A stretch of 64,000 bases of DNA, taken from a virus. Of this stretch, positions 31,630 to 61,885 are shown one piece after another. The DNA lies in the IMG/VR virus record IMGVR_UViG_3300047445_000406, positions 1-64,000 of that record; one strand, given 5' to 3'. A model generated the notes under the pieces. The model searched no databases. It was not told where the DNA came from and saw nothing but the letters and a program-made list of their open reading frames with translations. The position numbers were made by a program, and so were the translations under genes. Position 1 is the stretch's first letter. The number at the start of each line of letters is the position of its first letter.

Positions 31630-31859
31630 CCGCTATTACCAACAAACCGCCGACCATGAACCTGTCCAATGTTCCTGAAAACTTCGTGCCATTGACCGAG
31701 CATGAATTCACCAAGGCCTACATCGCTGCCAGAACCGCCGCTGGCGACCACTGGAGCACGCTCGATGTGGTGCGCAGCTGGGCCGCCTACCAGCATGATC
31801 CTGCCGGCCACTTCCTGTCCAAGCCAGAGGTGACCACCACTGGTTTGATCCCGGTGTAG
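31626..31859 (+). CDS. small protein, GTG start, unknown
   Basis: 77 residues from a GTG in a GTGA overlap, AAGGAAA upstream. VPLTEHEFTKAYIAARTAAGDHWS, SWAAYQHDPAGHF. Not recognised. Confidence 0.55.
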   Translation: MTAITNKPPTMNLSNVPENFVPLTEHEFTKAYIAARTAAGDHWSTLDVVRSWAAYQHDPAGHFLSKPEVTTTGLIPV

Positions 31860-31861
31860 TC

Positions 31862-32050
31862 ATGGGCCACGGTCATAGCCCGGCTGCCAAGCGCATCGCA
31901 CAACGGCAGATGGTCCGCAGCGTACCCTGCCCCAAGTGCAGTGCCAAGGCAGGTCAGAAGTGTATTGGCGTGCGGGTGAAAGCCCGTGCTGCCAGCCATC
32001 AGGAACGGTGGGATGCCTACCGTGAGCAGCAAACGAATCAAACCAACTAA
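31862..32050 (+). CDS. small zinc-ribbon DNA-binding-like protein
   Basis: 62 residues. VPCPKCSAKAGQKCIG followed by HQERWDAY matches the compact phage zinc module (CPxCxAxxGxxC...HxxR) found in many phage genomes, sometimes fused to nucleases. Metal binding through three Cys and the His is likely; DNA binding inferred from the family and the basic composition. Confidence 0.7.
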   Translation: MGHGHSPAAKRIAQRQMVRSVPCPKCSAKAGQKCIGVRVKARAASHQERWDAYREQQTNQTN

Positions 32051-32077
32051 ACCAACAACAGAAACGAAGGAGTCATC

Positions 32078-32416
32078 ATGTCCGAAACGCTGCACAAAAA
32101 GGCCGTCGACAAGGCCATCAAATTCCTGCAGGCTGCAGGTGCCAATTACATGATCGAATTCGGCGGTGAGAAATTCACCAACCGCAAGAGCCGTCCCGAT
32201 TACAAGAGCGTCTACGGCCCGCTGCTGGACCAGGCCGAGAAAGATGGCCAGACCACGGTCACCATCCAGGTACCGGCTGAATTCGAGCTGGAAGCCTTCC
32301 GCTCCGCCGTGGCCGGCACGCTGTCGCAACGCTTTGGTCCGGACAGCTCGATGTCCGAAATCAACAAGGAAGCCCACACCGTCACGGTGCTGTGGATTCA
32401 GGATAACCAAGGTTAA
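32078..32416 (+). CDS. conserved-looking protein, unknown
   Basis: 112 residues after GAAGGAG. KKAVDKAIKFLQAAGANYMI, GGEKFTNRKSRPDYKSVYG, VTIQVPAEFELEAFRSAV; compact alpha/beta appearance. Upstream of rIIA. Not recognised. Confidence 0.65.
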   Translation: MSETLHKKAVDKAIKFLQAAGANYMIEFGGEKFTNRKSRPDYKSVYGPLLDQAEKDGQTTVTIQVPAEFELEAFRSAVAGTLSQRFGPDSSMSEINKEAHTVTVLWIQDNQG

Positions 32417-57830: not shown

Positions 57831-58556
57831 ATGTCCCAAGTGAATGACAACCTGATCCTGATCGTAGGCAAATCGGCTGGCGGCAAATCCGCATCGCTGA
57901 TGGGCCTGAAGGATCCGCAGGGTGTGCTGTACCTGAACTGCGAATCCGGCAAGAAGCTGCCCTTCAAGTCCAAGTTCATCGAGAAGACGGTGACCGATCC
58001 GCTGCAGGTCTATGAAGCGTTCGACTGGGTCGAAGGCCAGCCGCACATCCACACCGTGGTGATCGATACCCAGACCTACCTGATGGACATGTTCGAGTCG
58101 CTGTACGTTATCGGCTCGGCCAATACCCAATCGGCCTGGGGCCAGTACGCCCAGTACTTCAAGAACCTGATGCAGCAGTACGTGGCCAAGTGCTCCAAGA
58201 ACGTGATCTTCCTGGCCCACTCGGCCGACGAGCTGAACAAAGATGACATGGTGATGGAAACCAAGGTACCGGTGAAAGGTAGCCTGAAGAACAACGGCAT
58301 CGAATCCTTCTTCAGCCAGGTCATCTCGGCCAAGAAGGTGCCGATCAAGGTGCTCAAGGATTACCCGAACGCCTTGCTCAACATCTCGGCAGAAGACGAA
58401 GCCCTGGGCTACAAGCACTGCTTCCAAACCAGGCTGACCAAGGACACCGTGGGCGAACGCCTGCGGGGGCCGATGGGCATGTGGATGGTGACGGAAACCT
58501 TCATCGACAACAATGCCCAGCAGGTACTGGACCGTCTGCACCAGTACTACGCATAA
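57831..58556 (+). CDS. RecA-fold ATPase, Sak4-like, N4 gp44-like
   Basis: 241 residues. Walker A VGKSAGGKS (12-20), Walker B HTVVIDTQTYL (about 74), NVIFLAHS (sensor-like). The small single-domain RecA core is that of the AAA_24/Sak4 group, thought to promote single-strand annealing or recombination together with an SSB; the SSB gene is next. Good site AAGGAAA. Confidence 0.78.
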   Translation: MSQVNDNLILIVGKSAGGKSASLMGLKDPQGVLYLNCESGKKLPFKSKFIEKTVTDPLQVYEAFDWVEGQPHIHTVVIDTQTYLMDMFESLYVIGSANTQSAWGQYAQYFKNLMQQYVAKCSKNVIFLAHSADELNKDDMVMETKVPVKGSLKNNGIESFFSQVISAKKVPIKVLKDYPNALLNISAEDEALGYKHCFQTRLTKDTVGERLRGPMGMWMVTETFIDNNAQQVLDRLHQYYA

Positions 58557-58677: not shown

Positions 58678-59436
58678 ATGAGCCTGCTCAAAAATCTGAA
58701 AACCGACGCTTCCATCGCTGGTGAAAAAGACTCCCTCGGCGGTGGCCGCCTGTTTGAATCCGGCCTGCTGAACATGGCCGTCACCATGGCCTACCTGAAG
58801 GAATCCGACAGCGGCGCCCTGGGCGTGTTCGTCACCCTGAAGAACAAGGCCGACAACCAGGAACTGCGCGTCAGCCAGTACGTCACCTCCGGCAAAGCCA
58901 AAGGCCAGAAGAACACTTACACTGACAAGGACGGCAATGAGCAATACCTGCCTGGCTTCCTGATCATGAACGGCCTGGCCGAGCTGACCACGGGCGTGCA
59001 ACTGTCCGACCTGGAAACCGAAGACAAGCTGGTCAACATCTACAGCGCGGCTGCCAAGGCCGAAGTACCAACCAAGGTACCAGTGCTGACCCAGCTGATC
59101 GGTCAGGAGATCAATGTCGGCGTGGTCAAGCAACGCGTCAACAAGCAGATCAAGAACGATGCCGGCGTATACGTCGACACCAACGACGAGCGTTTCATCA
59201 ACGAAGTCGACAAGTTCTTCTGCGCCAAGGACAAGTTCCTGAACATGACCGTGGCCGAGATCAAGGGCAAAGCGGATGAAGCCAAGTTCTACAAGGACTG
59301 GGCCGAGAAGAACACCGGAAAGCTGATCGACCGCTTCAAGCCAGTCGGTAACGGCACGGCAGGCGCCCCAGCCCGTACAGGTGCCGCTGCAGCCACCGGT
59401 GGCACTGCCAAGCCAGCCTCCTCGCTGTTCGGCTAA
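58678..59436 (+). CDS. ssb: single-stranded DNA-binding protein, N4 gp45-like
   Basis: 252 residues (N4 SSB is of similar length). The central beta-rich region (TMAYLKESDSGALGVFVTL, QELRVSQYVTSGKAKGQ) would be the OB-like fold. A Gly/Ala linker then leads to the tip PASSLFG. In N4 this SSB serves replication and recombination and also activates host sigma70 polymerase at late promoters through its C-terminus. The same SLFG tip occurs in the protein at 61427. Confidence 0.82.
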   Translation: MSLLKNLKTDASIAGEKDSLGGGRLFESGLLNMAVTMAYLKESDSGALGVFVTLKNKADNQELRVSQYVTSGKAKGQKNTYTDKDGNEQYLPGFLIMNGLAELTTGVQLSDLETEDKLVNIYSAAAKAEVPTKVPVLTQLIGQEINVGVVKQRVNKQIKNDAGVYVDTNDERFINEVDKFFCAKDKFLNMTVAEIKGKADEAKFYKDWAEKNTGKLIDRFKPVGNGTAGAPARTGAAAATGGTAKPASSLFG

Positions 59437-59513
59437 TCCCCGAACAACCCCATCACCGGATCACCAGCCTCCGGACCCCCAATAGCTGGACCCGCTACAC
59501 CGTAGTAAACGAG

Positions 59514-59541
59514 CCCCCATGTCCCCTCATGGGGGTTTTTT
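59514..59541 (+). terminator. strong intrinsic terminator after ssb
   Basis: CCCCCATG (59514-59521) / CATGGGGG (59528-59535), perfect 8 bp, 6-nt loop, then six T. Confidence 0.9.
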
Positions 59542-59561
59542 AACCCTCTCTGAAAGAGAAC

Positions 59562-60191
59562 ATGGAAACCAACAACATTCCTCGTGTTACTCCGCCGCAG
59601 ATTCAGGCCTTGATCGACCGTACCGAGTTCCGCTTCCAGGTGGTACCCGGTACCACCACCACGCTGTGCCTGGCACTGCTGGATGGTAAGTTCAACCTGG
59701 CCATTGGCAAGTCGGCCTGTGTCGATGCCCGCCTGTTCGACCAGAAAAAGGGCGAAGAGCTGGCCCACAGGGACTGCTATGCCCAGGCTGTCAACCGTCT
59801 GTGGGAGCTGGAAGGCTACCGTCTGTACCAGCGTCTGCGTGACGAGCCGGAACTGATTGCGGAAATCTGCCACGAAGCCAACCGTGCCTATTGCCAGGCC
59901 ATGGGAGATGAATCCCAGCCCGCCTGGACCGATGCCCCGGAATGGCAGCGTGTATCGGCCCGTAATGGCGTCGAAGCTCACCTGTCCACCGAGATGTCGC
60001 CGGCTGAATCGCATGCCGCCTGGATGACCGAAAAGCTGGCCAACGGCTGGCAGTACGGTGAAGTCAAGGATCCGGTGGCCAAAACCCATCCGTGCATGGT
60101 GCCCTACAGCGATCTGCCGGCCGCACAGCAAGCCAAGGACTTCATCTTCCGCGGCATTGTCAACGCCTTCAAGAAAGGCGGTGCAGCATGA
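59562..60191 (+). CDS. N4 gp49/Sf6 gp66-family protein fused to RyR-type domain
   Basis: 209 residues. N-terminal Gp49/Sf6 gene-66 family: VTPPQIQALIDRTEFRFQVV, TTTTLCLALLDGKFNLAIGK, LWELEGYRLYQRL. From about residue 105 an RyR (ryanodine-receptor-type) domain: EICHEANRAYCQAMGDESQP, WMTEKLANGWQYGEVKD, HPCMVPYSDLP. Both are recurrent in phages; functions unknown. An ATGA overlap with the next gene. Confidence 0.82.
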   Translation: METNNIPRVTPPQIQALIDRTEFRFQVVPGTTTTLCLALLDGKFNLAIGKSACVDARLFDQKKGEELAHRDCYAQAVNRLWELEGYRLYQRLRDEPELIAEICHEANRAYCQAMGDESQPAWTDAPEWQRVSARNGVEAHLSTEMSPAESHAAWMTEKLANGWQYGEVKDPVAKTHPCMVPYSDLPAAQQAKDFIFRGIVNAFKKGGAA

Positions 60192-60805
60192 GCGACCAAC
60201 ACGCCCCGGAAGTCTTCGTGGACAAGACGCCCGACCTGCCCTATGAGTTTGAAGACTTCGGCATGAGCAGCGCTGAGCTGCAGGCCAAGTACTTCGACAG
60301 CAACGAGCACGACTACTACACCACGCCCATGTGGGTGGAAGCCCACAAGGACCAGGCTACGGCCATGCCGTACTGGGACTGGGTGGTGCAGCAGATCGCC
60401 AAGGACGATGCAGCAACCCCTGGCAACGAAGACCTGGACAAGGAATTGACCATCGGCGATACGGCGGCAGCCACCGATCCCAAGCAGGAACTGGTCAGCA
60501 TCGGCAGTATCGATGAATTCGCTGGCTTCCTGGTCAACTGGCATGGCCGTCAGCGTGCCCAGGCGGAACACCTGTTCCAGGTACCTGCGGGTATCGAGAT
60601 CGAAGTGCAGATCGGCCACAACGACACCCCCACCAAGGTGGTGTTGGAAGGCGACAAGCTGCGTGCCTTCCAGGGTGGTGTCTCGGCAGCCCTGAGCCTG
60701 TTCGCTACCCTGCCCTTCGCCTTCATGGCGGTGGACCTGGCAGCACCGGCCGGTGATCAGACTGCTGAAACCGCTGTCGATGGTGAAGGCAGCGATGTCG
60801 GTTAA
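60188..60805 (+). CDS. acidic protein, unknown
   Basis: 205 residues from the ATG overlapping the previous stop. Strongly acidic (DLPYEFEDFGMSSAELQAKY, NEDLDKELTIGDTAAATDP). Middle SIGSIDEFAGFLVNWHGR, a hydrophobic patch ALSLFATLPFAFMAVDL, and an acidic end. The next gene starts inside its 3' end. Not recognised; N4 gp46-48 position. Confidence 0.65.
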   Translation: MSDQHAPEVFVDKTPDLPYEFEDFGMSSAELQAKYFDSNEHDYYTTPMWVEAHKDQATAMPYWDWVVQQIAKDDAATPGNEDLDKELTIGDTAAATDPKQELVSIGSIDEFAGFLVNWHGRQRAQAEHLFQVPAGIEIEVQIGHNDTPTKVVLEGDKLRAFQGGVSAALSLFATLPFAFMAVDLAAPAGDQTAETAVDGEGSDVG

Positions 60806-61400
60806 GGAGCTGATCGTCGTCGGTTTCGACCCGTCGATGAACAACTGGGGCGTCAGCCGGGGCATCATCTCGGTTGACCCTGCCAACCTGCGTAATTCCT
60901 CCCTGCGTGTGTCTGGCTTATCGGTCATCAATCCGGTCAAGCCAGACAGCAAGCAGGTGCGGACCAACAGCAAAGACCTGCTGGCAGCGGAACAGCTGGC
61001 TAGGGGTGCGCTGGAGGCCGCAGCAGGCGCCCAGGCGATCTTTGTCGAAGTCCCGGTCGGTTCCCAGTCCGCCCGCGCGATGGCCTCCTATGGCATCTGC
61101 GTGGGTGTGCTGGGTGCCTTGCGTGCCATGGGCATCCCCTTCTTCGAGGTGACTCCCACCGAGGTGAAGATGGCGTCCGTCGGCAAGAAGACCGCGACCA
61201 AACAGGACATGATCGCCTGGGCACAGGCCCAGCATCCCGAAGCCCCCTGGCCAACCTACAAGGAAAAGGGCATCGAGTACGTGTCTGAAGCCAAGGCCGA
61301 ACACATGGCCGATGCGACCGCAGCAATTTATGCCGGCGTGCGCACGACCACTTTCCAATCCCTGCTACCGATGCTGGTGTCCCAGCTGAAGGTGGCGTAG
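60795..61400 (+). CDS. RuvC-like Holliday junction resolvase
   Basis: 201 residues from ATG 60795 (an upstream ATG at 60780 has no site). RNase-H fold with VVGFDPSMNNWG (Asp12), IFVEVPVGS (Glu about 85), VTPTEVKMASVGKKTATKQD and EHMADATAAIYAG (Asp about 173). These match the acidic tetrad and the TPxxVK motif of RuvC/poxvirus-type resolvases. It would resolve recombination or branched replication intermediates before packaging. Overlaps the preceding gene by 11 nt. Confidence 0.82.
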   Translation: MSVKELIVVGFDPSMNNWGVSRGIISVDPANLRNSSLRVSGLSVINPVKPDSKQVRTNSKDLLAAEQLARGALEAAAGAQAIFVEVPVGSQSARAMASYGICVGVLGALRAMGIPFFEVTPTEVKMASVGKKTATKQDMIAWAQAQHPEAPWPTYKEKGIEYVSEAKAEHMADATAAIYAGVRTTTFQSLLPMLVSQLKVA

Positions 61401-61426
61401 CATTATCTTTAAACCAAGGAAACAAC

Positions 61427-61885
61427 ATGAAACTCCAACTCGAACAAGCAGAAATCGAAAAGGCCGTGCAGGAATACGTGGCCAACCAGGGCATCAAGGT
61501 CGAGGGTAAAACCCTGACCGTGAAGTTCTCCATGACCCGTGGTGAACAAGGCCTGATCGCCGACCTGACCATCGATGAAGTGAAGGCAGATATCAAGCCT
61601 GTCACCCGTGCACCGCGTGCCGGTACGGTGGGTGCCGCCATCGCCAACCAGTCGGCCGGTCAGTCGGGCAAACAGGAAGCCAAACCAGCCCCGACTACCG
61701 CCAAGGAAGCGATCGAGCAAGCCACGGCGGCAGCAGCTGAAGCGGCGGCGGCCCGTACCGAGCAAACTACCGCGGTGGAAACCGAGGAAGCCTCCCAGGC
61801 TGCAGCGGAAGAGACTGCCGGCGAAGCCAAGGAAGAAACCGTATCTGCTCCGGCTGCGGCGCCTGCCAAATCCCTGTTCGGCTAA
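61427..61885 (+). CDS. protein with SSB-like C-terminal tip
   Basis: 152 residues. The first about 70 look folded (LEQAEIEKAVQEYVANQGIK, TLTVKFSMTRGEQGLIADL). The rest is an Ala/Glu/Thr-rich disordered linker (EAIEQATAAAAEAAAARTEQ) ending APAKSLFG, the same last four residues as the SSB at 58678 (PASSLFG). No other protein in the window ends this way. It may bind the SSB's partner. Not recognised otherwise. Confidence 0.65.
   Translation: MKLQLEQAEIEKAVQEYVANQGIKVEGKTLTVKFSMTRGEQGLIADLTIDEVKADIKPVTRAPRAGTVGAAIANQSAGQSGKQEAKPAPTTAKEAIEQATAAAAEAAAARTEQTTAVETEEASQAAAEETAGEAKEETVSAPAAAPAKSLFG

Follow-up and report, generated by a model that had tools for sequence, protein, structure and literature searches.

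An SSB-like C-terminal tip on the gp47-family protein encoded beside a Holliday-junction resolvase in an N4-like virus

Introduction

Why does a second, small protein of an N4-like virus end in the same residues as its single-stranded DNA-binding protein (SSB)? The question is raised by the window analyzed here, a stretch of 64,000 nucleotides (positions 1 to 64,000) of IMG/VR record IMGVR_UViG_3300047445_000406, which forms part of a 77,895-base Schitoviridae (N4-like) virus. The SSB open reading frame (ORF) at positions 58678 to 59436 encodes 252 amino acids ending in TAKPASSLFG, and a second ORF at positions 61427 to 61885 encodes a protein of 152 residues ending in PAAAPAKSLFG. A preliminary description of this DNA had pointed to the two ends, SSLFG and KSLFG, and to a disordered linker before the second; both ends were exact, and the linker was also disordered in an AlphaFold2 (AF2) model. 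The same description had suggested that the second protein shares the architecture of an SSB and competes for, or bridges to, a partner of the SSB.

Results

Both tips are kept across Schitoviridae

The 152-residue protein was recognized as a homologue of N4 gp47. It matched PHROGs 18842, 7564, and 7641, which with PHROGs 27655 and 33948 represent the N4 gp47 family and carry no function label in PHROGs, and it had the domain signature of that family (QxEIExA...Y ... F..xRGxxGxxA), its gene place directly downstream of a Holliday-junction resolvase gene and ahead of the convergent virion RNA polymerase (vRNAP) gene, and its C-terminal x-[LIM]-F tip. Neither Pfam nor NCBIfam gave a match, and a search for related loci with the window gp47 alone as the query returned no relative. 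In tblastn searches, the family was found in Schitoviridae of Pseudomonas, Achromobacter, Rhizobium, Agrobacterium, Erwinia, Salmonella, Klebsiella, Stenotrophomonas, Xanthomonas, and others.

Every IMG/VR locus whose sequence extended 3 kb or more beyond the SSB gene (n = 157) encoded a protein with an SSB-like tip at the gp47 place; 148 of these proteins were recognized by the gp47 profile, 8 by position and tip, and 1 (locus L167, tip DDPF) by eye. Across 48 relatives, residues S149, L150, and F151 of gp47 hardly varied, in contrast to most of the chain, and in an alignment of 64 SSBs the corresponding F251 was invariant and S249 and L250 were nearly so. The preliminary description would have been refuted had the SLFG end not been conserved in homologues of the 152-residue protein, an outcome that the 157 loci and the 48 gp47 sequences exclude. 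The motif [ST][LIM]F was observed in 66 of 79 nonredundant gp47 relatives and a looser xLF-type tip in all but two of them; from the linker composition, [ST][LIM]F would be expected by chance within the last 22 gp47 residues in about 1 of 870 proteins. Convergence of two disordered tails by chance or low complexity, to which the Ala-rich linkers of both proteins might point, is thus refuted by the near-universal conservation and the correlated substitutions described below, together with the complete absence of the strict motif from 2,744 linker residues, and is vanishingly improbable.

In a set of 28 annotated phages, the tip was found at both C termini, the sole exception being gp47 of the N4 record. 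That record (EF056009, positions 31678 to 32112; L006:6679-7113) lacks one A in an A-run compared with the near-identical AlfredRasser, whose gp47 reads on to AKPSLFAGLKR. Because of this single missing base, the annotated C terminus of N4 gp47 is wrong and an SLFAGLKR tip is hidden. In Roseophage DSS3phi2 (L253:18428-19360), the annotated RusA-like protein ends early and appears to continue in the next frame into a gp47-like stretch ending in PAKKSSIFDVD, of which KKSSIFDVD matches the KSSLFDD end of the SSB of the same phage. The split appears from the reading frames to be either a record error or a frameshift.

No other plausible gene ending in such a tip was found in the whole 77,895-base record, and two further LFG-like ends belonged to ORFs judged to be antisense shadows. 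Across the loci, other tip-bearing ORFs numbered 27 of 3,932 and were nearly all spurious; the vRNAP C terminus, considered as a third bearer, ended in SLFK or SSIF in a few contigs and was not conserved.

Some gp47 proteins departed from the usual layout. Possum gp47 (L025:6905-7693) had several extra DLF(A/S) repeats in its linker besides the terminal copy, and EcP1 gp47 had two SLFD copies; to judge from these repeats, the tips of both proteins are multivalent. In L242 (position 7621 onward, plus strand), the protein at the gp47 place kept SLF tips and had an N-terminal region unlike the usual gp47 domain. In L167 (positions 7222 and 8863 onward), the SSB and gp47 tips were both of the DDPF type, resembling the bacterial SSB tip.

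The two tips change together

Where the tip departed from SLF in one protein, related departures were seen in the other, as in the SSB and gp47 ends of Possum (QSDLFL and VLDLFS), L141 (VDDLFDEDE and DDLFDT), L234 (DDDLFA and STDLFD), L147 (QDNLFM and INLFA), L248 (GGIFGKKK and SIFSKRKKA), and L167 (TGDDPFTM and TEDDPFANFD). With genomes collapsed at 50% SSB identity into 37 lineages, the residue at the Ser position was the same in the SSB and gp47 of one genome in 27 lineages, against 16.7 expected (permutation p ≤ 5e-5). On a tree of Sak4 plus SSB, changes fell on the same branch 7 times at the Ser position against 2.0 expected (p = 4e-4) and 4 times at the L position against 1.4 expected (p = 0.03); clustering and the tree reduce the effect of shared ancestry on these comparisons without removing it fully. 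A basic residue after F was likewise common to both proteins (15:1:4:18, Fisher p = 3e-6, 50% clustering). Co-variation of the tips in relatives, which the preliminary description had proposed as a check, was therefore borne out. Its simplest cause would be a common binding site, and since the tips are jointly conserved and vary in step throughout the family, the two proteins probably have the same partner, as had been suggested; this is the best reading of the conservation and co-variation. That a single pocket takes both tips appears likely.

gp47 is tied to the resolvase

In the window, the RuvC-like Holliday-junction resolvase gene (60795 to 61400, plus strand; phrog_159, E = 1e-41) is separated by 26 bases from the downstream gp47 gene. 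Of the 116 loci in which a RuvC-like or RusA-like resolvase was recognized, 111 had it no more than 60 bp from gp47; the other 22 loci mostly had a further RuvC-superfamily protein before gp47, and the two of these that were tested matched phrog_1770. Altogether, three resolvase types occur beside gp47, and in RHEph16, N38, ort11, ZC03, and contig L135, RusA and gp47 form one polypeptide. The order Sak4-SSB-resolvase-gp47 was constant in the sampled genera. Since gp47 is retained while unrelated enzymes swap in, and is fused to a resolvase, its best interpretation is as an accessory to the resolvase; from adjacency and the fusions, gp47 probably functions with the resolvase.

A shared layout on different folds

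The preliminary description had credited the 152-residue protein with the same folded-domain architecture as an SSB. The layout of domain, linker, and tip was indeed the same, and the folds differed, being a 50-residue alpha-beta-beta unit in one protein and an OB-like domain of about 220 residues in the other. The SSB, which matched phrog_743 over its full length (residues 1 to 252, E = 5e-65), comprises the OB-like domain (residues 1 to 222, positions 58678 to 59343), a disordered Gly/Ala/Pro linker (59344 to 59418; predicted local distance difference test [pLDDT] score of 33 to 43), and the tip SSLFG (residues 248 to 252, 59419 to 59433; stop codon at 59434 to 59436), all on the plus strand. 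Its AF2 model had pLDDT values of mostly 88 to 97 across residues 31 to 220 and a weak Foldseek match to the OB-fold single-stranded DNA (ssDNA)-binding protein PrgE. The gp47 protein, also on the plus strand, comprises the N-terminal domain containing R38 (61427 to 61579), a disordered Ala/Glu-rich linker (61580 to 61870; pLDDT of about 50 to 57), and the tip SLFG (residues 149 to 152, 61871 to 61882; stop codon at 61883 to 61885). Its model, built with 48 relatives, had a helix (residues 7 to 20) and a beta-hairpin (residues 28 to 36 and 43 to 51) with a pLDDT of about 86, followed by about 95 disordered residues; R38 was invariant in most relatives and lost in some lineages. Foldseek searches with this model gave no PDB match and, in BFVD, retrieved gp47 relatives and one RusA fusion, and a PDB sequence search returned no solved relative of either protein. 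Identity of the 152-residue protein as an SSB was rejected, its short helix and hairpin not being an OB-fold and no SSB profile matching it. On the models, the two proteins are not homologous in their folded parts, and their likeness lies in layout and tip.

Neighboring genes

The order of genes in the window was primase, Sak4-like ATPase, SSB, gp49/RyR-domain protein, Mu-Gam-like protein, RuvC-like resolvase, the 152-residue protein, a 64-residue hydrophobic ORF, and the convergent vRNAP. The Sak4-like single-strand-annealing ATPase (N4 gp44; 57831 to 58556; phrog_124, E = 1e-45) is a candidate receptor of the tips. Between the SSB and resolvase genes lie those for the N4 gp49/RyR-domain protein (59562 to 60191; PF13876 and PF02026) and, just upstream of the resolvase, a Mu-Gam-like end-protection protein (60188 to 60805; phrog_15896, E = 5e-12), all three genes being on the plus strand. 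A strong terminator-like hairpin (CCCCCATG...CATGGGGG, then TTTTTT) was present on the plus strand at 59514 to 59541, between the SSB and gp49-like genes; given its place after the SSB gene, the SSB may be produced in larger amounts than the products of the resolvase and gp47 genes. SSBs of the N4 type often had LFxxL-like N termini (for example, MSNLFGNL at L006:5322) resembling the gp47 tails SLFAGL and SLFGNL, and the N terminus of the window SSB was MSLLKNL.

Discussion

Alternative partners of the tips

The preliminary description had suggested that gp47 competes with the SSB at, or bridges it to, the host RNA polymerase beta-prime subunit and so times the middle-to-late switch. PMC2784036, citing Miller 1997, gives S260, K264, and K265 as the RNA polymerase-activating residues of N4 SSB (gp45), which belongs to the same family, phrog_743, and has the tip S260-L-F-G-K-K, so that S260 supplies the Ser of SLF; where the SSB tail of an N4-like lineage is basic after F, gp47 is basic there too. 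Both window tips, however, stop at the G of SLFG, so two of the three activating residues are missing and only the Ser is present. Lysines after SLF are confined to a subset of the SSB family (K at +2 in 30 of 129 SSBs), and the SLF core is far more widespread. In addition, gene order and fusion connect gp47 with resolvases rather than with transcription genes, and the tip has other jobs, the SSB also being required in replication and recombination according to Choi 1995 as cited in PMC2784036. Competition at RNA polymerase might occur in N4-type lineages; it is not a parsimonious account of a family-wide tip beside resolvases, and as a general explanation, with the timing of the switch, it is quite improbable.

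Other partners are conceivable. The tips might bind another replisome component, such as the phage DNA polymerase, primase-helicase, or exonuclease, or the host beta clamp, whose binding motif is QL[SD]LF. The S/D alternation in the tips falls where the clamp motif has it, and the SSB ends in QSDLF or QNDLF in Cbunavirus and in QADMFED in L036. Yet Gln at -4 occurred in just 5 of 129 SSB tips and was not among the commonest gp47-tip residues, and a scan of gp47 tails found no Q-x-x-[LMI]-F string; the tips therefore do not fit the clamp motif as defined, and we consider this group of partners unlikely. Somewhat less doubtful, although still improbable, is that the gp47 domain itself receives the SSB tip on SSB-coated ssDNA, its own tip being a displaceable intramolecular mimic serving autoinhibition or chaining. 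Such a receptor would account directly for the co-variation. In Gamaleyavirus G17 and Cbunavirus, though, the gp47 domain lacks the otherwise invariant R38 and the tip is retained, and L242 keeps its tip on an unusual N-terminal region.

Recruitment of the resolvase

We favor an account in which gp47 acts as an accessory to the resolvase and, by docking its tip at the SSB-tip site, recruits the resolvase to the recombination machinery, an account that could equally prove right or wrong. The alpha-beta-beta domain would stay with the resolvase, as the product of a neighboring gene or, in several phages, within the same polypeptide, and the long disordered linker would display the SLF(G) tip, which would dock in the pocket that also takes the SSB tip. 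The resolvase would thereby be brought to SSB-coated intermediates of recombination or replication, such as annealed intermediates, or be handed over at them. The pocket would belong to a phage recombination or replication protein, for which the Sak4-like annealase (gp44) is the first, tentative candidate. More speculatively, gp47 might be a dedicated SSB-tip mimic with which the resolvase shares or takes the SSB-tip pocket on the recombination ATPase, as a switch for the handoff from annealing to resolution, and in basic-tailed lineages competition of this kind for host RNA polymerase might link recombination with late transcription; we regard this extension as doubtful.

Several observations weigh against this account. 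At the residue after F, same-branch changes were not significantly in excess (20 against 16 expected, p = 0.08). Loci L209, L037, L141, L250, and L055 showed no recognized resolvase just upstream of gp47. A search in Sak4, the SSB, and the gp47 domain for basic residues tracking acidic tips gave only a lineage-specific (Cbunavirus) signal and singled out no receptor. Finally, AF2 confidence at the tip was about 75 in gp47, above that of its linker, and about 43 for the equally conserved tip in the SSB model, so that the gp47 domain itself may be the pocket.

Comparison with known systems

The nearest published precedent for this gene set is HK620, in which, as in Schitoviridae, sak4 adjoins ssb and the last six SSB residues bring Sak4 to SSB-coated ssDNA (PMC5928155). 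The HK620 tip, NDYPPF, is unlike the present one in resembling that of Escherichia coli SSB, and a second tip-bearing protein is not described there. In phage T4, gp55, gp33, and gp43 bind the sliding clamp through shared, exchangeable C-terminal tips (PMC2988020). There, too, several proteins of one phage carry near-identical short tips on flexible linkers for one partner and join replication to another process; the T4 tips differ in sequence, however, and act through the phage sliding clamp on late transcription, whereas gp47 adjoins a resolvase. The T7 SSB, gp2.5, carries a tail matching that of the gp4 helicase. The acidic C-terminal tail of gp4 binds basic patches of the gp5 polymerase (PMC12593628), so that here again a second replication protein docks on a common partner through an SSB-like tail. 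The T7 tails, however, are acidic and end in Phe, whereas the Schitoviridae tips are x-[LIM]-F-[GASN], often nonacidic, and borne by a resolvase-linked protein. The principle of the shared tip is thus already known; what appears to be new is its bearer, its motif, and its link to a resolvase, and no literature on the gp47 tip or its resolvase link was found in open-access papers.

Implications

The N4 reference record should be used with caution at this gene, as its one-base shift conceals the gp47 tip. Swapping the correlated changes in the tips (Ser to D, N, or DDPF) from one phage to another could identify the receptor that they share. Judged by its occurrence across the loci, gp47 looks like a core protein of Schitoviridae; gp44 (Sak4) is listed as core in PMC7650795, and gp47 is not among the family signature genes given there. 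Pan-proteome surveys appear to have overlooked it owing to its short length, its divergence, and the disorder of most of its chain. For a family in which the activating tail of N4 SSB has long been studied, gp47 is a candidate second type of ligand, and one that offers a testable function.

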